A stretch of DNA of 64,000 bases from positions 186,001 through 250,000 of the forward strand of contig JAPLKU010000013.1 in the NCBI GenBank assembly GCA_026387935.1, read 5' to 3'. Numbering within the stretch: the first letter of the stretch is position 1; each line of letters begins with the position of its first letter. The position numbers were made by a program, and so were the translations under genes. This document shows positions 4,225-53,404 of this stretch, piece after piece. The notes under the pieces were generated by a model, which searched no databases, had not been told where the DNA came from, and saw only the letters and a program-made list of their open reading frames with translations. This stretch comes from Gemmatimonadota bacterium (GTDB lineage: Bacteria; Gemmatimonadota; Gemmatimonadetes; Gemmatimonadales; Gemmatimonadaceae).

Positions 4225-4230
4225 TAGATT
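4225..4230 (+). promoter_or_regulatory. Putative -10 element TAGATT before hutI
   Basis: The hexamer TAGATT lies nine bases before the hutI start, in the short gap after the coiled-coil gene. The same hexamer occurs before recA, alaS, hflX, hrcA and both tRNA genes. No -35 box is obvious. If used, it gives hutI its own promoter with almost no leader. Confidence 0.45.
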
Positions 4231-4239
4231 GAGCATCGC

Positions 4240-5538
4240 ATGCCGACGCTCTTCGTCAACGCCTCACAAATCGTTACCTGCGCCGGCCCCGCGCGAGCAC
4301 GCCGCGGCGCCGAGATGCGTGATATGCAGGTGCTCTCTGACGGGGCCGTGGTGGTCGACGCTGGCAAAGTGATTGCCACGGGCCCGCAAGCCGACCTGGC
4401 ACGCCAATATCCGAACGCCTCGCAGATCGACTGCGCCCGCGGCGTCCTCACGCCCGGCCTCGTCGATTCACACACGCACGGGATTTTTGGCAAGCCGCGC
4501 CACGCGGAGCAGGAACTCCGCGCCTCCGGCGTCGGCTACATGGAGATCGCCAAGCAGGGCGGGGGGATTCACGGCTCCGTCCGCGATCTCCGTTCGCGCA
4601 GCGAGGACGAACTCTTTCACCTCGCGCTCGGCCGCATCAGACGCCTTGCCGCGCATGGCACCACCACGCTCGAACTCAAGAGCGGCTACGGCCTGTCGCT
4701 CGAAGACGAGCTGAAGTCGCTCAGGGTGATCCGCCGTCTCGCCGCGGCCAGCCCGCTCCGAATTATTGCGACCTTTCTCGGCGCACACGAAATCCCGTTG
4801 GAATTCCGCGCCACGCCACGTACCCGCGACGAGTACGTCGCGCTGATCGTGAACGAAATGATCCCGCGCGTCGCGGCCGAATCGCTCGCGACATTTGCCG
4901 ACATTTTCTGCGAGCCGGGCGTCTACACCCTCGCGGAATCACGACACATTCTCACCGCGGCCCGCGGCGCAGGACTCGGCATTAAGCTCCACGCCGACGA
5001 ACTCGAGCCAGGTGGCGGCGCTGAACTGGCCGCTGAGCTTGGAGCGACGAGCGCCGATCATCTCGCGGCGGTGTCTGATGGCGGGATCAAGGCCCTGGCG
5101 GGCGCCGGAACGGTTGCCACCCTTCTCCCCGGAACCATGATGTTCCTGGGGCGCACCAAGCAGGCTCCTGCCCGGGCGTTTATTGACGCCGGCGCAGCCG
5201 TCGCCCTGGCCACCGACTTCAATCCGGGCACCTCGCCGACGGTCAATTTCCCACTGATGCTCACCCTGGCCGTGAGCCAGCTCCATCTGTCGGTTGCCGA
5301 AGCGGTAACAGCCGCCACCGTGAACGGCGCCGCCGCCCTCGGATTGGCCCACGAAACAGGCCAAATCGCCCCCGGAATGTCGGCCGATCTGGCGCTCTTC
5401 GACATTGGGGATATTCGGGAGCTCCCGTACTGGTACGGCGACCACCGGTGCGCCCGGTCCTGGGTCCGTGGAATCGCTTGTCACGACCCCGGCGCGGACG
5501 GTAACTTTACCCTTCTTCAGCCAGCATCGGCGATCTAA
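4240..5538 (+). CDS. hutI: Imidazolonepropionase
   Basis: HutI is a metal-dependent amidohydrolase that opens 4-imidazolone-5-propionate to N-formimino-L-glutamate, step three of histidine degradation. The 432-residue length is normal. The metal-binding VDSHTHG motif puts His78 and His80 in the barrel, LKSGYGLSLEDE follows, LHADELEPGGGAELA is the hut-type second motif, and ATDFNPGTSP holds the conserved Asp. The C-terminal GQIAPGMSADLALFD is the amidohydrolase composite domain. hutH, hutU and hutI are in pathway order, interrupted by two genes of unknown role. No hutG or hutF (fate of formiminoglutamate) is visible in the window. Confidence 0.97.
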   Translation: MPTLFVNASQIVTCAGPARARRGAEMRDMQVLSDGAVVVDAGKVIATGPQADLARQYPNASQIDCARGVLTPGLVDSHTHGIFGKPRHAEQELRASGVGYMEIAKQGGGIHGSVRDLRSRSEDELFHLALGRIRRLAAHGTTTLELKSGYGLSLEDELKSLRVIRRLAAASPLRIIATFLGAHEIPLEFRATPRTRDEYVALIVNEMIPRVAAESLATFADIFCEPGVYTLAESRHILTAARGAGLGIKLHADELEPGGGAELAAELGATSADHLAAVSDGGIKALAGAGTVATLLPGTMMFLGRTKQAPARAFIDAGAAVALATDFNPGTSPTVNFPLMLTLAVSQLHLSVAEAVTAATVNGAAALGLAHETGQIAPGMSADLALFDIGDIRELPYWYGDHRCARSWVRGIACHDPGADGNFTLLQPASAI

Positions 5539-18995: not shown

Positions 18996-19303
18996 AAAGA
19001 GGTGACTCGGCGCATGGTTCCGGCCGCAGGGCAGCCTGAATACGCAGAAACTACAACTGCACCAACGACATACAGCGATTGTTGAAAACTTCGCTAAGTC
19101 TATATCTGTGATGTAGTTGGTCTGCGTCTTCTATCTGCCCTGCGGCTTGCGCCTTTGCGATCATCTTCGTACTATGTTCGGTATCGGTTTTTGAACGGTT
19201 TCCGCTCTACTCTGGGGAGTCTGGATGCAATCCGCACCCCCTTCTCCCCAAGGGTAGATTTCTATCCACTGGCGCTGCGATGCGCCGACTTTTCGAGGCC
19301 ACA
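18996..19303 (+). promoter_or_regulatory. recA upstream region with candidate control sites
   Basis: This gap is clearly less GC-rich than the genes around it. CTTC-N7-GTTC at 19165-19179 is one mismatch from the GTTC-N7-GTTC SOS box of alphaproteobacteria, and the same GTTC pairs with GAAC at 19193. TGGGGAG (19213-19219) and CTCCCCA (19244-19250) form a dyad directly upstream of the -10-like TAGATT at 19255-19260. A LexA-type or other operator is plausible, but no lexA gene is in the window to compare with. Confidence 0.4.
19255..19260 (+). promoter_or_regulatory. Putative -10 element TAGATT before recA
   Basis: TAGATT lies 43 bases before the chosen recA ATG (19304), which would give a leader of about 37 bases containing the weak Shine-Dalgarno GAGG. 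The hexamer recurs before six other units in the window. Confidence 0.5.
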
Positions 19304-20356
19304 ATGGCTGCAACCGCCGCGCAGAACGACGAAAAGAAGAAGGCCCTCAACCTCGCGATCGCGCAGATCGAGAAATCCTACGGTCGTGGCGCGATCATGA
19401 AGATGGGCCCCGATGCGCCTAAAATCCGCATCGATTGCATCCCGACGGGCGCCATCAACCTCGATGCCGCGATTGGCGTCGGTGGTATTCCCCGCGGTCG
19501 TATCACCGAGATCTACGGACCGGAGTCGAGCGGCAAGACCACGCTCTGCTTGCACGTTGTCGCCAACGCGCAGCGCGCCGGCGGCACGGCAGCCTTCATC
19601 GACGCTGAGCATGCCCTCGACACTGAGTACGCCGCAAAGCTGGGCGTGGACGTCGAGAAGCTGCTCGTCTCGCAGCCCGATACGGGCGAACAGGCCCTCG
19701 AGATCTGCGAGATCCTCGTGCGCTCGGGCGCGGTGGACGTCATCGTCATCGACTCCGTGGCCGCACTGGTCCCGAAGGCCGAAATCGAAGGCGAGATGGG
19801 CGATTCGCACATGGGGTTGCAGGCGCGCCTAATGAGTCAGGCGCTGCGCAAGCTCACCGGTGCCATCGCCCGCTCGAAGGTGTCGCTGATCTTCATCAAT
19901 CAGCTGCGTGAGAAGATCGGCGTGATGTTCGGTAACCCGGAAACGACGACGGGCGGAAAGGCGCTCAAGTTCTACGCCTCCGTGCGTCTCGACATCCGGC
20001 GCATCGGACCGGTAAAGGATAAGGAAGAAATCATCGGCTCGCACGTTCGTGTGAAAGTCGTGAAGAACAAGGTGGCCCCGCCGTTCAAGCAGGCTGAATT
20101 CGACATCATGTACGCCGAGGGCATTTCGCACTCGTCGCTGCTGGTGGATATCGGCTCGGAGAATGGCATCATCGAGAAGTCGGGCGCCTGGTACAGCTAC
20201 GGCGGCCAGCGCATCGGTCAGGGCCGCGAGAACGCGAAGCTCTTCCTCAAGGACAATCCGGCCGTCATGGCCGAAATCGAGGAGAAGGTGAAGGTCGTGC
20301 TCGGTATCAATAAGGAGGCCATTGTGCCGCCTGATGCGGAGGCAACCGAGGAGTAG
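19304..20356 (+). CDS. recA: Recombinase RecA
   Basis: RecA coats single-stranded DNA, drives strand exchange and triggers LexA self-cleavage. From ATG 19304 the protein is 350 residues; an in-frame ATG at 19280 would add MRRLFEAT, which is not RecA-like, and GAGG lies five bases before 19304. The core is complete: [12 protein letters not shown] (Walker A), [28 protein letters not shown] (Walker B), [20 protein letters not shown] (loop L2) and [12 protein letters not shown]. The acidic C-terminus (ATEE) is present but short. recX follows after a 118-base gap. Confidence 0.98.
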
Positions 20357-23897: not shown

Positions 23898-23903
23898 TAG
23901 ATT
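23898..23903 (+). promoter_or_regulatory. Putative -10 element TAGATT before alaS
   Basis: TAGATT lies nine bases before the alaS ATG, in the gap after the hydroxylase operon. No Shine-Dalgarno site is present between the hexamer and the start, so a leaderless or nearly leaderless message is likely if it is used. Confidence 0.5.
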
Positions 23904-23912
23904 TCCAGCACT

Positions 23913-26660
23913 ATGGACGCTGCCGAAATCCGCACCCGCTTCCTCAAGTTTTTCGAACGGAATGGCCATGCCATCCGGTCGTCCTCGTCCCTTGTTCCAG
24001 GCGACGACCCGACGCTGCTTTTCACCAACGCTGGAATGGTGCAGTTCAAGCGCGTCTTCCTTGGCATGGAGGCTGCCCCCGATGGCAATCGTCGCGCCAC
24101 GACGAGCCAGAAGTGCGTGCGCGCCGGTGGTAAGCACAACGATCTCGAGCAGGTTGGCCACACGGACCGGCACAACACGTTCTTCGAGATGCTCGGCAAC
24201 TTTTCGTTCGGCGACTACTTCAAGCGCGACGCCATCACGTTTGCGTGGGAGTTCATCACCGGTCCGATAGCGCAGGGCAACCTCGGCATTCCGCCGGAGC
24301 ATCTCCGCGTGAGCGTCTTCCACGAAGACGATGAAGCACGCCAGCTCTGGAAGGAAATCGCCGGCATTCCCGACAGTCGAATTTACGGACTTGGCGCGGC
24401 GGACAATTTCTGGCAGATGGCCGACACCGGGCCGTGCGGCCCGTGCAGTGAGATCTATATCGATCTCTATCACGCCTCGCAGGAATACCGCTTTCCCGCG
24501 GGTGCGAGCGGCGAGTGGGCGGAAAAGGATCGCACCGATTTTTCGACGCAGGCGTTTATCGACGGAGCCGAAGCGGGCCGCTTCCTGGAGTTCTGGAATC
24601 TCGTGTTCATGCAGTTCGACAAGCAGCCCGACGGCACCAACGTCCCGCTGCCGAAGCCGAGTGTGGATACGGGCATGGGCCTGGAGCGGATCACGACGAT
24701 CATGCAGGGCGTGTCGAACAACTTCCACGCCGATCTCTTCGCCACGTACATCGCGAAGGTCGCCGAGTTGGTCAAGCGTCCGTACGATTTCAATCGCTCG
24801 GAGTGCGCCAGCTATCGCGTGATTGCCGACCATGCGCGCGCGGTCGCCTTTCTTCTCGCCGATGGTGTCTTCCCGAGCAACGACGGTCGCGGCTACGTCC
24901 TGCGCCGCATCCTGCGCCGCGCGGTGCGCCACGCCTGGCTGCTCGGCCTGCGCGAGCCCGCGCTCGTGCATGTCGTCGAGCTCGTCATCGCCAACATGCG
25001 CGATGTCTATCCCGAGCTCCACGTGCGTCACAAGCACATTGTCGAGACCACGCGCGCCGAAGAAGAGCGATTCCTTGCCACGATTGACGGCGGCATGGCG
25101 CGCTTCGACGAACTCGCGCCCAAGTCCAACACGCAGGGCTCCACGCACATGCGCGGCTCGATCGCCGGCGAAGATGCGTTCAAGCTTTACGATACGTTCG
25201 GTTTCCCTATCGATCTCACCGAGTTGATGGCGCGCGAGCGTGGTTACCTCGTGGACATCTCGGGATTTGAGGCCGCGCTCGCCGGGCAGCGCAAGCAGTC
25301 GCAGGACGAAAGAAAGTCCAAGAAACTGAGCGTGGTTGCAGATTCCTTTGGTGATGCGTCGCTCTGGGACACGAGCACCTACGCCGCCGCGCAGCAGGCG
25401 TTTGTCGGCTACGACGCCATCGAGGTCGAAACTCACGTCGCGGCAGCGCGCACGCTCGATGACGGTCGTGTTGCGGTCATTCTCAACGACACGCCCTTCT
25501 ATACCGAATCGGGTGGGCAGGTATCCGACACCGGCACGATTGTCGGCGACGGCTGGCTCATGAACGTGGACGATGTGAAGAAGGCCGATGGCCGCGTTGC
25601 TGCAATCGGTGCCATCACCGGCACGCTTGCCATGGGGGCGGTGGTCGCCCGCGTCACGCCGACGCGACGCCGCGATATCACGCGCAATCATACCGCCACG
25701 CATTTGCTGCACGCGGCGCTCCGGAAACTCTTGGGCGAGCACGTGCATCAGGCGGGCAGCGTGGTCGATCCCGAACGGCTCCGGTTTGACTTCACCCACC
25801 ACGGTCCGCTCACGCACGCCGAAGTCGAGAAGGTGGAGCGATGGGTGAACGAGGGAATCTGGCAGAACACCAACGTGCGCACAGTGGAAAAGCCGTACGC
25901 CGACGCGGTGGCGGGTGGAGCGATGGCCCTCTTCGGCGAGAAGTACGGCAGCGTTGTGCGCGTGGTGGAAATCCCGTTCCGTTCCACTGAATTGTGCGGT
26001 GGCACGCACGTCGGCAACACGGGCCAAATCCTGCTCTTTCGCGTGATCAGTGAGACGGGCGTGTCGGCCGGCGTGCGGCGCATTGTCGCGATTACTGGTC
26101 CCAAGGCATTCGAATCGTTGCGCGAGCGCGAGCGTACGCTCGAGCAGATTGCCGAACGCCTTAAGGTGAATATCCACGCGGCGGGCACCGAAGCCGTGGC
26201 GCGCAAGGTCGATCAACTGCTTGCAGAAAAGAAGACGCTCGAGAAGAAGCTCGAAGAAGCCGTGCGGGGCGGAGGAGGCGGGTCGGCAATGCAGGGCATT
26301 CTCGCCTCGGCGAAGGCGGTCGGCGCATGGAGCGTCGTCGCCGGAAAGACCGACGCGAGTGCGCTGCCGGAGCTGCAGACACTCGGCGATGCGATTCGCG
26401 ACCAACTGCCGGCCGGCGTCGGTGTGCTCGGCGGCACGTTCGAGGATGAGAAGGCGACGATCGTCTTTGTCGTGGGCGATACGCTGCGCGCCAAGGGAGT
26501 GTCGGCCGGTGATTTGGTCAAGGGATTCGCGGCCAAGACTGGCGGGCGCGGCGGCGGCAAGCCGCACATGGCGCAGATGGGCGTCGAGCCGGAGAGGATG
26601 GATGCGACGCTGGACGAGGCGAAAGCGTATGTCGCTGACACGTTGGCGCAGGTGTCGTGA
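23913..26660 (+). CDS. alaS: Alanyl-tRNA synthetase
   Basis: AlaRS charges tRNA-Ala and clears mischarged Ser or Gly. The 915-residue protein is full length (usual 870-900). The class II catalytic domain begins with RTRFLKFFERNGH and contains LFTNAGMVQFKRVFLG, SQKCVRAGGKHNDLEQVG and FFEMLGNFSFGDYFK. The editing domain has the zinc ligands HTATH near residue 593 and CGGTH near 695. A coiled-coil and the C-Ala domain with its glycine-rich AAKTGGRGGGKPHMAQMG end the protein. A TAGATT promoter-like hexamer is just upstream. The long open frame on the opposite strand is a GC-codon shadow. Confidence 0.98.
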   Translation: MDAAEIRTRFLKFFERNGHAIRSSSSLVPGDDPTLLFTNAGMVQFKRVFLGMEAAPDGNRRATTSQKCVRAGGKHNDLEQVGHTDRHNTFFEMLGNFSFGDYFKRDAITFAWEFITGPIAQGNLGIPPEHLRVSVFHEDDEARQLWKEIAGIPDSRIYGLGAADNFWQMADTGPCGPCSEIYIDLYHASQEYRFPAGASGEWAEKDRTDFSTQAFIDGAEAGRFLEFWNLVFMQFDKQPDGTNVPLPKPSVDTGMGLERITTIMQGVSNNFHADLFATYIAKVAELVKRPYDFNRSECASYRVIADHARAVAFLLADGVFPSNDGRGYVLRRILRRAVRHAWLLGLREPALVHVVELVIANMRDVYPELHVRHKHIVETTRAEEERFLATIDGGMARFDELAPKSNTQGSTHMRGSIAGEDAFKLYDTFGFPIDLTELMARERGYLVDISGFEAALAGQRKQSQDERKSKKLSVVADSFGDASLWDTSTYAAAQQAFVGYDAIEVETHVAAARTLDDGRVAVILNDTPFYTESGGQVSDTGTIVGDGWLMNVDDVKKADGRVAAIGAITGTLAMGAVVARVTPTRRRDITRNHTATHLLHAALRKLLGEHVHQAGSVVDPERLRFDFTHHGPLTHAEVEKVERWVNEGIWQNTNVRTVEKPYADAVAGGAMALFGEKYGSVVRVVEIPFRSTELCGGTHVGNTGQILLFRVISETGVSAGVRRIVAITGPKAFESLRERERTLEQIAERLKVNIHAAGTEAVARKVDQLLAEKKTLEKKLEEAVRGGGGGSAMQGILASAKAVGAWSVVAGKTDASALPELQTLGDAIRDQLPAGVGVLGGTFEDEKATIVFVVGDTLRAKGVSAGDLVKGFAAKTGGRGGGKPHMAQMGVEPERMDATLDEAKAYVADTLAQVS

Positions 26661-31920: not shown

Positions 31921-31926
31921 TATCTT
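31921..31926 (+). promoter_or_regulatory. Putative -10 element TATCTT before rarA
   Basis: TATCTT lies seven bases before the rarA ATG, with no Shine-Dalgarno site in between. The position matches the TAGATT hexamers before hflX and hrcA. Confidence 0.3.
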
Positions 31927-35206: not shown

Positions 35207-35739
35207 CGAGATGAGGGGGGTATGCACGCGTTGAACTACTCGGGATTGAACCAAGTGGCCTCCGAATGGGCGCAGGTCGTCAGCCCCAATATGAACCGAG
35301 CGGTAGGTATGCACTTCACGGTACCCGGCCGTAGGAGCGCGATCAAGCCATCCTCCCGAGGTGACACGTGGAGACTCTTCCCAAGCCACCCAATCGCTGA
35401 GTGCCACTGCCGGCTCACCAGCGAAATCGGCAAAAGCCGATTCCAGTGTTGCGGCGTCGAGGGCGGCGAGACGGCGGACAGTACCAGCGTTGCTCCGAAT
35501 GCTCTGTGACGGAGAAACATACTGAACGAGGTAGGCCATGGCAGGACGCACGTTGGGCCACGAATACTCCAACGTTGCCCATCGCATGAATCCCCAGACG
35601 CCGCGCGCTGCAAATAGCAGCGCGGTGGGAAGGAACTCGCGCCAGTCCTTTGCGCAGGCGCCATTGATTCGCCGCATTCACAAGCCGCAGCGACTTCCGG
35701 AGCGACCAGCGGCAAGGGAAGCGGCGCTAGATTCCTTAC
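35207..35739. other. 533-base region between divergent fabF and hflX
   Basis: No gene is assigned. The minus strand is open in frame with fabF for 157 codons ([20 protein letters not shown] and neighbours look protein-like), so either a fabF extension or a decayed fragment may be present. The only recognised control site is the hflX TAGATT at the right end. Confidence 0.4.
35728..35733 (+). promoter_or_regulatory. Putative -10 element TAGATT before hflX
   Basis: TAGATT lies exactly six bases before the hflX GTG. Transcription would start at or next to the start codon, so the mRNA would be leaderless. hrcA has the same hexamer at the same distance. Confidence 0.5.
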
Positions 35740-37086
35740 GTGGCCAAAGAAATCATCGACCTCGTCGCTCCGCAGGAACGCGCTGTGCTCGTCGGCGCGC
35801 CGCTCAAGCGCAGCAACGCCAAGCATCTTGTGGAGGAACACCTCCGCGAGCTCGAGCGCCTCGCCGACACCGCCGGTGCCAAGATCATTGGTGAACTAAC
35901 GCAGCAAGTCGATCGCCCCGACTCGGCCACCTACATCGGCAAGGGGAAGGTTGACGAGCTCAAGATCATGGTTGAAGAGAAGGACGCGACCCTCGTCATT
36001 TTCGACGACGAACTGACCCCTGCGCAGGGCAAGAATCTCGAAGAGGCCATCGGCAAGCGGGTCATCGACCGCGCCGAACTCATTCTCGACATCTTCGCCG
36101 TCCGCGCGCGCAGCGCCGAAGCCAAGATGCAGGTGGAACTGGCGCAGCTGGAATACTCGCTGCCGCGCCTCACGCGCATGTGGACCCACCTCGAGAAGTT
36201 CCGCGGTGGCATTGGCGTTCGCGGCCCTGGCGAAACGCAGCTCGAAACCGACCGCCGGCTCATCGGGCAGCGCATCAAGGTGCTCAAGGACCGCCTGCAC
36301 GAGGTCACGCGATCCCGCGAGGTTCAGCGCAAGAGTCGGCGCGCGGCGTTCCGTGTGTCGCTCGTGGGTTACACCAATGCAGGCAAGAGTTCGCTGCTTC
36401 GATCGCTGGTGCGCTTGGGCAACGCCGCGGGCCACAGTGCTGCCGAGGACAAGGGCGCCGACATCTTTGTCGAAGACCGCCTCTTCGCCACCCTCGACCC
36501 GCTCACGCGCGACGTGTCGCTCGGCCATGGCGGCACACCGCTCGTCGTCACCGACACCGTGGGTTTCATTCGCAAGCTGCCTCACCACCTGGTGGCGAGC
36601 TTTCGCGCCACTCTCGAGGAAGTGCGCGAGGCCGATCTGCTGCTCCATGTGATCGACGCCGGCAGCCCCACCTGGGAAGAGCAGCGTCTCGTCGTGGACG
36701 AGGTGCTCGCCGAGCTCGAGGTGCACGACCGGCCCGTGCTGCACGTGTTCAACAAAATCGACCGACTCGATGCCGCAGGCCTCGCCGGCCTACGCGAGCG
36801 CATGGGTAACCTGTTGCCCGGTTCGGTATTCGCGAGCGCGGTGGCGCCGCATGGCGTCGATCCGCTGATCGCGGCGCTGCGCACGGCCATGGAGCGGTCA
36901 CGGCCCATCGTGCGGCTACGCGTGCCGGCCGCGGAAGGGAAGCTGCTCGCTGAGATTCACCGGGGCGCGCAGGTGGTGGAGAGCGCGAACGATGAAGAGA
37001 CGGGCGACGTGCTGCTCAGCGTGCGGGCGGATGCGGCCGAAATTGGGAGGTGGGAGCGGTGGGTGAACGCCGGCGCCGTGGCCTGA
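35740..37086 (+). CDS. hflX: Ribosome-associated GTPase HflX
   Basis: HflX splits stalled or heat-damaged 70S ribosomes. The protein has 448 residues. The N-terminal HflX domain has TYIGKGKVDELK, VIFDDELTPAQGKNLEEAIG and RVIDRAELILDIFAVRARS. The middle has GIGVRGPGETQLETDRRLI. The GTPase domain has G1 GYTNAGKSSLL near residue 210, G3 DTVGFIRKLPHHLVASF and G4 FNKIDRLD. The GTG start is supported by the TAGATT six bases upstream and by absence of other good starts. The C-terminal 100 residues contain an extra domain of unknown role. tRNA genes follow on the other strand. Confidence 0.96.
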   Translation: MAKEIIDLVAPQERAVLVGAPLKRSNAKHLVEEHLRELERLADTAGAKIIGELTQQVDRPDSATYIGKGKVDELKIMVEEKDATLVIFDDELTPAQGKNLEEAIGKRVIDRAELILDIFAVRARSAEAKMQVELAQLEYSLPRLTRMWTHLEKFRGGIGVRGPGETQLETDRRLIGQRIKVLKDRLHEVTRSREVQRKSRRAAFRVSLVGYTNAGKSSLLRSLVRLGNAAGHSAAEDKGADIFVEDRLFATLDPLTRDVSLGHGGTPLVVTDTVGFIRKLPHHLVASFRATLEEVREADLLLHVIDAGSPTWEEQRLVVDEVLAELEVHDRPVLHVFNKIDRLDAAGLAGLRERMGNLLPGSVFASAVAPHGVDPLIAALRTAMERSRPIVRLRVPAAEGKLLAEIHRGAQVVESANDEETGDVLLSVRADAAEIGRWERWVNAGAVA

Positions 37087-37292: not shown

Positions 37293-37298
37293 AATCTA
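37293..37298 (-). promoter_or_regulatory. Putative -10 element TAGATT for tRNA-Val
   Basis: On the minus strand TAGATT lies 18 bases before the mature 5' end of tRNA-Val, a normal distance for a -10 box plus a short 5' leader. Confidence 0.55.
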
Positions 37299-37406: not shown

Positions 37407-37412
37407 AATCTA
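37407..37412 (-). promoter_or_regulatory. Putative -10 element TAGATT for tRNA-Met
   Basis: On the minus strand TAGATT lies 13 bases before the mature 5' end of tRNA-Met, which implies a pre-tRNA leader of about seven bases. It is the second tRNA in this pair with the same hexamer. Confidence 0.55.
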
Positions 37413-38208: not shown

Positions 38209-38214
38209 TAGTTT
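38209..38214 (+). promoter_or_regulatory. Putative -10 element TAGTTT before the heptose kinase gene
   Basis: TAGTTT lies three bases before GTG 38218 and six before GTG 38221. The six-base spacing equals that of hflX and hrcA, which favours GTG 38221 as the start of a leaderless message. Confidence 0.3.
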
Positions 38215-40867: not shown

Positions 40868-41614
40868 GTGCGCAACGAACGAATCGAGAAACAAACCATA
40901 CTCGACACACTCGATGCTGCGACGGCGGCACTTGTCCGGCTGTCCGCGCGGATCACGGCGGGGAATGAGGAATCGGTGCGTGCAGGGCTCGCCGCGTGTG
41001 CGGCTGTACCAACGCCCGCGCGCTGGATCGAAGAGTTGGTGCTGCAGTCGTACTTGTTCGCCGGGTTTCCGCGGGCGCTGAATGCAGCACGGGAGTGGAG
41101 ACGAACTATTGCACAGACGGGTACAGCGGGAGCTAAGCGGGAACAGGAAGGGGATGGGGAACGGGGCGGTCCCTCCCCTTCGTTGCCTCCGGAGAACCCA
41201 GTACCACCGCTGGCACCGGCACCCATTCCCGGTAGTGAGAGCTACGCTGATCTCTACAATTGGCGCATCCGTGGCGAAGAAACGTGCGCAACGGTCTACG
41301 GCGGTATGTACGAGAAGCTCAGGGGCAACATCCGGCAGTTGCATCCGCAGCTCGACGAATGGATGATTGTCGAGGGATACGGGAAGGTTTTGTCACGCCA
41401 GGGATTAGATTTGCCAAGGCGGGAGTTGTGCATCGTGGCGGCCTGCGTGGCCGCGCAGCAGGATCGGCAGTTGCATTCGCATCTTCATGGCGCGCTGAAT
41501 GCCGGCGCATCACGGAAGGCGGTGGATGCAACGCTCGTCGCCATTCGCGAAGTCGTCCCCGAAGGAGCGCTGGTGACCGCAACGCTTCTGTGGAATCGAG
41601 TCAAAGGGAAATAA
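40868..41614 (+). CDS. Carboxymuconolactone decarboxylase / AhpD-like protein with a repeat-encoded insert
   Basis: The 248-residue protein is related to the carboxymuconolactone decarboxylase family. Residues 1-80 (ARWIEELVLQSYLFAGFPRA, LNAAREW) and 125-248 (LYNWRIRGEETCATVYGGMY, RQGLDLPRRELCIVAACVAA, QLHSHLHGALNAGASRKAVD) match the usual helical pattern, with His-x-His in the C-terminal half. The canonical AhpD Cys-x-x-Cys pair is absent. Residues about 84-122 (GERGGPSPSLPPENPVPPLA and flanks) are low-complexity and are encoded by an inverted pair of the dispersed GC-rich repeat; other members have a short linker there. The start is a GTG. Activity unknown. Confidence 0.82.
   Translation: MRNERIEKQTILDTLDAATAALVRLSARITAGNEESVRAGLAACAAVPTPARWIEELVLQSYLFAGFPRALNAAREWRRTIAQTGTAGAKREQEGDGERGGPSPSLPPENPVPPLAPAPIPGSESYADLYNWRIRGEETCATVYGGMYEKLRGNIRQLHPQLDEWMIVEGYGKVLSRQGLDLPRRELCIVAACVAAQQDRQLHSHLHGALNAGASRKAVDATLVAIREVVPEGALVTATLLWNRVKGK
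41117..41232. repeat. Dispersed GC-rich repeat inside a coding sequence (copy C, inverted pair)
   Basis: A plus-strand unit (41117-41170; GGGTACAGCGGGAG then a GGGGATGGGGA tail) and a minus-strand unit (41196-41232; GGGTGCCGGTGCCAGCGG when read on that strand) lie about 25 bases apart. The segment is in frame with the host gene and adds about 39 codons. Confidence 0.5.
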
Positions 41615-45215: not shown

Positions 45216-45221
45216 TAGATT
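45216..45221 (+). promoter_or_regulatory. Putative -10 element TAGATT before hrcA
   Basis: TAGATT lies exactly six bases before the hrcA GTG, identical in sequence and spacing to hflX. No CIRCE operator (TTAGCACTC-N9-GAGTGCTAA) is present in the 138-base gap. Confidence 0.5.
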
Positions 45222-45227
45222 TCCTCC

Positions 45228-46274
45228 GTGGCCAGCCTTGAACTCAACCACCGCGAACGTCAGGTCCTCGCCGCCGTCATCCGCTCGTACGTCGAGACGG
45301 CTGAACCGGCGGGCTCGCGCACTGTTTCGCGTCGTTTCGGACTCGGCGTCAGTCCCGCCACGATCCGCAACACGATGAGTGATCTGGAAGAGAAGGGTTT
45401 CCTCTTCCATCCGCACACCTCAGCTGGCCGCATCCCTACCGACAAGGCATACCGCGTCTACGTCGACGAACTCATGAAGGTCTCGCCGCTCGATCGTGCG
45501 CAGAGCGAGCGCTTGAGCGCCGAGATCACTCAGGGCACCGCGACACTGGAGAGCATCCTTCGTCGCGCGGCACAGTCCCTCGGTGTGCTTACGCAGGAGC
45601 TCGGCGTCGCCCTCGGGCCTCGCCTCGACGACACGATCCTCTCGCGCCTCGAACTCGTTCGATTGTCCTCTGAGCGCCTGATGCTCGTGCTCTCGCTTCG
45701 CGGTGGGGCGGTGCGCACCATCTTCATCGAAGTGCGTGGCGTCATCGGCGACGATGCACTCGCCGAAGTGCAAATCGTGCTGAACGAACGTCTCGCCGGC
45801 CTCACGCTCTCGGCCATTCGCGCGACACTCGGCGAACGCCTGCGGGATACCGGCGCGACGACCGGTGGAACCGAACTGCTCAACATCTTTCTACAGGAAG
45901 GGGATCAGCTGTTCGACATGCCGTCGCCGTCCGAGGGAGATTCCGTCGTGCTCGGCCAGGCGTCAGTGCTTGCCGATCAGCCCGAGTTTGCGACCGGCGA
46001 TCGACTGCGCAGTGTGATCGAGCTCACGGAAACGCGGACCGAACTCGCGCAGTTGCTGCGCAGTCGCAAGCAGTCTGCCGGTGTGCAGATCACGATTGGG
46101 TCCGAGCATGGTGCCGCGCTCCCGGCCGGCCTCACGGTCGTGACGGCAGAGTACACGGCCGGTTCGCTGCAGGGCGTCATCGGCGTGATTGGCCCGACGC
46201 GCATGCCGTATGAAAAGATTATTTCGCTTGTGTCGCACACTTCTTCCCTAGTGACTGAATTGCTCGATGGCTGA
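45228..46274 (+). CDS. hrcA: Heat-inducible transcription repressor HrcA
   Basis: HrcA represses class I heat-shock genes by binding CIRCE, with GroEL as co-factor. In its 348 residues, the N-terminal winged helix has [40 protein letters not shown] and the wing [20 protein letters not shown]. The GAF-like core has [11 protein letters not shown] and, near the end, [20 protein letters not shown]. The GTG start follows TAGATT by six bases. It overlaps dnaJ by eight bases. No CIRCE site is seen here, so its targets (groESL and others) must lie elsewhere. Confidence 0.95.
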
Positions 46275-53398: not shown

Positions 53399-53404
53399 AA
53401 TATA
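53399..53404 (-). promoter_or_regulatory. Putative -10 element TATATT before the sdh operon
   Basis: On the minus strand TATATT lies five bases before the sdhC ATG. There is no Shine-Dalgarno site, so the operon message may begin at or near its start codon. Confidence 0.4.

Follow-up and report, generated by a model that had tools for sequence, protein, structure and literature searches.

Results and Discussion

Putative Leaderless Promoters in the Window

In the Gemmatimonadota genome studied here, hexamers of the form TANNTT, such as TAGATT, very probably act as sigma-70-type −10 boxes that drive leaderless or near-leaderless mRNAs from roughly 9% of genes, a figure that refers to the strict hexamer after subtraction of the background. 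The hexamers form a positional peak close to start codons that is absent in controls, and they are conserved in relatives; from these observations we infer recognition of the box by the main sigma factor, the positions at which transcription starts, and translation of the resulting mRNAs without a leader.

The first-pass annotation of the 64-kb stretch of DNA analyzed here (the window) had listed TAGATT ahead of hutI, recA, alaS, hflX, hrcA and, on the minus strand, two tRNA genes, and all seven copies were found (Table 1). The six-base distance that it gave between TAGATT and the GTG of hflX and hrcA was reproduced upon re-measurement (6 and 6), as were two of the related hexamers that it placed near starts, TATCTT at 7 bp from rarA and TATATT at 5 bp from the minus-strand gene that it termed sdhC, for which our NCBIfam and Pfam searches returned no match. 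One further copy, the eighth, at 41406 (+), falls within an open reading frame with a carboxymuconolactone decarboxylase (CMD) domain; the gene caller alone would place this copy outside genes, and we counted the CMD-domain reading frame as a gene instead. The raw count of eight is within chance (the mean of shuffled sequences is 5.1 ± 2.4, and 17 of 100 shuffles reach 8), and it is the placement of the copies that is unusual, with seven of the eight being intergenic when the non-coding share of the window is ~10% (P about 6e-7). We note that the CMD-domain reading frame itself (40868–41614) was overlooked by the codon-model gene caller.

Table 1. Putative −10 boxes in the window and the genes that follow them, with spacer lengths and NCBIfam matches.
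Feature	Positions	Strand	Spacer or family match
−10 box TAGATT of hutI	4225..4230	+	9 bp to ATG 4240
hutI	4240..5538	+	TIGR01224, E 1.4e-125
−10 box TAGATT of recA, leadered	19255..19260	+	43 bp to conserved start 19304
−10 box TAGATT of alaS	23898..23903	+	9 bp to ATG 23913
alaS	23913..26660	+	TIGR00344, E 1.2e-252
−10 box TATCTT of rarA-type AAA ATPase	31921..31926	+	7 bp to ATG 31934
−10 box TAGATT of hflX, putative leaderless	35728..35733	+	6 bp to GTG 35740
hflX, ribosome rescue GTPase, GTG start	35740..37086	+	NCBIfam TIGR03156, E 6.4e-133
−10 box TAGATT of tRNA-Val	37293..37298	-	spacer 18 bp
−10 box TAGATT of tRNA-Met	37407..37412	-	spacer 13 bp
−10 box TAGTTT of pfkB/RfaE-domain-I kinase	38209..38214	+	3 bp to GTG 38218, 6 bp to GTG 38221
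−10 box TAGATT of hrcA	45216..45221	+	6 bp to GTG 45228
hrcA, GTG start	45228..46274	+	TIGR00331, E 2.9e-86
−10 box TATATT of gene earlier termed sdhC	53399..53404	-	5 bp to ATG 53393

In the mechanism that we propose, the housekeeping (sigma-70-type) polymerase would recognize TANNTT hexamers such as TAGATT as −10 elements, placed 5–10 bp, and most often 6 bp, ahead of the start codon in roughly one gene in ten. Transcription would begin about 7 bp past the box, that is, on or a few bases from the first base of the start codon, such that the mRNAs of hflX and hrcA, with their 6-bp spacers, would have their 5′ ends at the GTG, and those of hutI and alaS, with 9-bp spacers, would carry a leader of zero to a few bases. 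A leaderless mRNA of this kind would be bound by a ribosome carrying the initiator tRNA, with no requirement for a Shine-Dalgarno site, and at recA and the tRNA genes the same box would lie further upstream and give rise to normal 5′ leaders.

To an alternative in which the promoters are real and the mRNAs nonetheless carry short leaders, because the transcript begins farther downstream or the start codons are misannotated, we assign a small though appreciable probability. Spacers of 8–10 bp (hutI, alaS) would indeed allow leaders of 1–4 nt, and the kinase gene of Table 1 has two GTG candidates; however, the 6-bp peak described below matches the usual distance from a −10 box to the transcription start, and alignment supports the starts of hflX (the N-terminus of which was aligned across about 50 relatives), hrcA and alaS.

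Positional Peak in Held-Out Genes

The held-out sample comprised 1.2 Mb of the 2.8-Mb genome, with the window excluded, and its genes were called by a codon-model finder that uses neither promoter nor Shine-Dalgarno signals. Among the 972 held-out genes, the starts of which are gene-caller predictions and in some cases wrong, TANNNT lies 5–10 bp before the start in 110 (vs 22.6 in control windows), TANNTT in 70 (vs 6.5) and TAGATT in 6 (vs 0.7). When operon-first genes are considered, with those of the window included, TANNNT forms a single-base peak at a 6-bp spacer (25 vs 2.6) and totals 65 vs 15.8 over 5–10 bp, and operon-internal genes show a smaller excess as well (16 vs 2.9). In the same genome, ANNNTA and TNNNAT give no comparable peak before starts.

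The peak of TANNNT close to starts that the first-pass annotation proposed as a check is thus borne out: it is sharp at 5–10 bp, with its maximum at 6, in genes outside the window. TAGATT itself has 98 copies in the whole genome vs 43 for the reversed hexamer. Outside the window, 26 of 35 copies are intergenic, with non-coding DNA making up only 9.3%, and none of the TAG-containing permutations of TAGATT pairs such a high count with such a high intergenic share. The intergenic copies (window included) lie mainly 5–9 bp (10 sites) and 33–94 bp (15 sites) from the next start, two groups which we read as putatively leaderless and leadered genes, respectively. Shine-Dalgarno hexamers are enriched equally strongly at the same upstream positions, which suggests that leaderless initiation coexists with other modes, and by strict patterns most genes have neither the box nor a Shine-Dalgarno site upstream. 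The “many mRNAs” that were originally suggested to begin at their start codons would therefore amount, by the strict hexamer, to roughly one gene in ten. The 16S rRNA, which we sought for comparison of the anti-Shine-Dalgarno sequence, is missing from this MAG.

Conservation in Relatives and Control Genomes

Across 61 Gemmatimonadales genomes, TANNTT-N6-ATG occurs 4412 times vs 1317 for TANNTT-N18-ATG, a control that preserves the reading phase (ratio 3.35). The excess of N6 over N18 is found in 60 of the 61 genomes and is 76 vs 11 in the genome of the window, whereas the corresponding counts in 19 genomes outside the order are 4892 vs 4870 (ratio 1.00). The reversed pattern proved to be a poor genome-wide control, and the phase-matched N18 pattern was substituted for it. 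TANNNT shows no peak in GC-matched Burkholderiales (3 vs 5.0 expected) and no excess in gammaproteobacteria (5 vs 6.4 expected). In 200-kb samples of close relatives the signal is weak (8 vs 3.4 in G003, 2 vs 2.9 in G015), the samples, taken from four relatives, being too small for firm distance histograms.

At individual genes, nearly all of the relatives compared have the alaS box 5–10 bp ahead of the start, with the remaining upstream DNA diverged; the box takes the form TAGATT in the genus and mostly TATATT in the family and order. The hrcA genes of relatives carry TAGATT-, TAGTAT-, TAGACT- or TAAATT-type boxes near the start, the pattern within the genus being similar to that of alaS, and only a few close relatives have the hflX box exactly 6 bp before the GTG, as TAGATT (L142, L145, L002) or TAAATT (L143); at these two genes, too, the flanking DNA has diverged. 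The species of the window and two close relatives (L201, L202, L218) share a second short conserved piece, CTAACTC, ahead of the −10 box of alaS.

The leaderless −10 geometry that had been proposed for the box is hence supported by the held-out peak and by its order-wide occurrence and absence in Burkholderiales, but it does not extend to recA, where TAGATT is also conserved in the genus. From its predicted start, recA is a leadered gene: the start at 19304, which is set by alignment of the conserved MAVS and by stop codons that lie in frame a short way upstream in some relatives (e.g., L234), is 43 bp past the box, and the ATG is preceded by GAGG, a Shine-Dalgarno site. We note also that members of the genus share a short stretch, roughly TAGATTtcNNctCACGGGCGC, immediately downstream of the recA −10 box (19255–19303; L232–L243), which may be a site of regulation within the leader.

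Shape of the Motif and the −35 Signal

At the peak, T occupies the fifth position of the hexamer in 66% of cases (31% in background hexamers) and G almost never does, which defines the motif class as TANNTT. This revises the initial designation of TAGATT as the −10 box, as TAGCTT, TAACTT, TATCTT and TATTTT are equally common. An EM motif fit returned a TANNTT-like box and a Shine-Dalgarno-like box, but its background weight fell to zero, and its proportions were thus discarded. The base composition shows no sign of an extended −10 element (TGN preceding the box). TTG is found at a spacing of exactly 17 bp in 10 of 102 leaderless-type promoters, vs an expectation of ~1.6 at any one position (P about 3e-4 when corrected for the positions considered), and most sites lack it. 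The first-pass observation that no −35 partner is evident holds at hflX and hrcA in the window, where a −35 signal is absent, but not for this genome-wide minority. By eye, TTGAC lies upstream of the box in some relatives' hrcA.

These data also bear on whether the hexamer, rather than being a promoter, might act in translation or reflect the codon context beside start codons. A peak at a fixed distance from start codons is what such a signal would produce; however, a TANNNT-type hexamer also precedes 8 of 18 tRNA genes by 6–18 bp, in the absence of any start codon, which favors a promoter, and the same kind of box is found 33–94 bp before other genes. The phase-keeping N18 control lacks the signal, and some boxes are accompanied by TTG at −35 spacing, such that we consider a translational origin very improbable. 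We give still less credence to chance, or to an AT-rich bias just upstream of genes, with which the raw TAGATT count in the window would agree, as this is already disfavored by the excess in held-out genes and by the negative results for ANNNTA, TNNNAT and the GC-matched controls.

Comparison to Known Leaderless Systems

TA-led leaderless genes, in which TANNNT has its first T about 12 bp upstream of the start, have been described as Shine-Dalgarno-independent, mixed with Shine-Dalgarno-led genes and widespread in bacteria, and are best known in Actinobacteria and Deinococcus-Thermus, where they make up >20% of genes (Zheng et al. 2011, PMC3160421). The hexamers described here are alike in that the position of their first T peaks sharply at about 12 bp upstream of starts, above the control, with the addition that the fifth base is also usually T. 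A −10 motif adjoining ORFs has been shown experimentally in Deinococcus, at about 30% of ORFs; in Deinococcus-Thermus there is mostly no −35 element, and expression rises when one is introduced at 17 bp (PMC12340547, 2025). The geometry is the same in the present genome, at roughly 9% of genes by the strict hexamer, an estimate drawn from sequence only. The texts of PMC3160421 and PMC12340547 contain no mention of Gemmatimonad*, although their tables may include a genome of this phylum.

The principle of a leaderless −10 box is therefore already known, and is now documented, at the level of sequence, in Gemmatimonadota. The TAnnnT hexamer of a sigma-70-type promoter is matched here, also before tRNAs. 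The Bacteroidetes promoter is TAnnTTTG with TTG upstream at a longer spacing; it shares with the present boxes a TANNTT(T) core, in which the fifth and sixth bases are T, whereas the weak TTG seen here lies at the ordinary 17-bp spacing. Gemmatimonadota genomes come mostly from uncultured organisms, and their starts are often predicted using Shine-Dalgarno sites; if about a tenth of the genes are leaderless, as is probable, many predicted starts and promoters would be corrected.

Start Codon of hflX across Gemmatimonadota

The start codon of hflX is a more surprising lead than the leaderless boxes themselves. In 35 of 50 non-redundant Gemmatimonadota-type loci (those examined include L001–L025, L042, L142–L170 and L324–L338), the first conserved hflX codon is AUC (19), AUU (12) or AUA (4), hereafter AUH, rather than AUG or GUG. 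In 21 of these 35 genes, an in-frame stop is met within the 19 preceding codons, and none of ATG, GTG and TTG intervenes; in 15 of the 35 the next 19 codons downstream hold no ATG, GTG or TTG either. Mismatch rates at codon positions 1–3 are 0.53/0.32/0.64 after the AUH codon and 0.70/0.72/0.70 before it, from which it follows that codon periodicity begins at this codon. Most AUH-start hflX genes are preceded by a Shine-Dalgarno site, and the AUH start recurs in 12 of 14 further genomes. Predicted initiation of hflX at AUH in most Gemmatimonadota is thus well supported, and we found no description of hflX starting with AUC, AUU or AUA in the literature searched. A non-canonical start kept in evolution has parallels in the AUU of infC and the GTC of sigR (PMC5472188).

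A Shine-Dalgarno site is mostly missing where hflX starts with GTG or ATG, and several of these genes have a −10 box close by. In the genus of the window, hflX starts mostly with GTG or ATG, in several cases with a −10 box directly before. It seems, from this comparison of loci, that the hflX of the window has given up a leadered AUH start and adopted GTG without a leader, in what would be a lineage-specific switch. One could speculate that AUH-start hflX, which encodes a ribosome-splitting GTPase, is subject to start-codon discrimination by IF3, together with IF3 itself, and that the lineage of the window escaped from this through a leaderless GTG, with the promoter moved onto the gene; we regard this scenario as tentative and rather doubtful, and its link to IF3 as conjecture. 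In any case, hflX lends itself to testing whether a ribosome rescue factor is controlled through its start codon, and whether leaderless initiation has taken the place of such control within one family.

Finally, we note some similar apparent starts elsewhere. Two Chloroflexota hflX genes (L049, L060) have an apparent AUA start that follows AGGAGG, and their upstream frame holds no ATG, GTG or TTG. The infC gene of the genome studied here (L321) has an apparent AUU start behind GGAGG, as do those of its genus, and among the infC loci compared (L301–L323) those of other families of the order have CUG or AUU as candidate starts.
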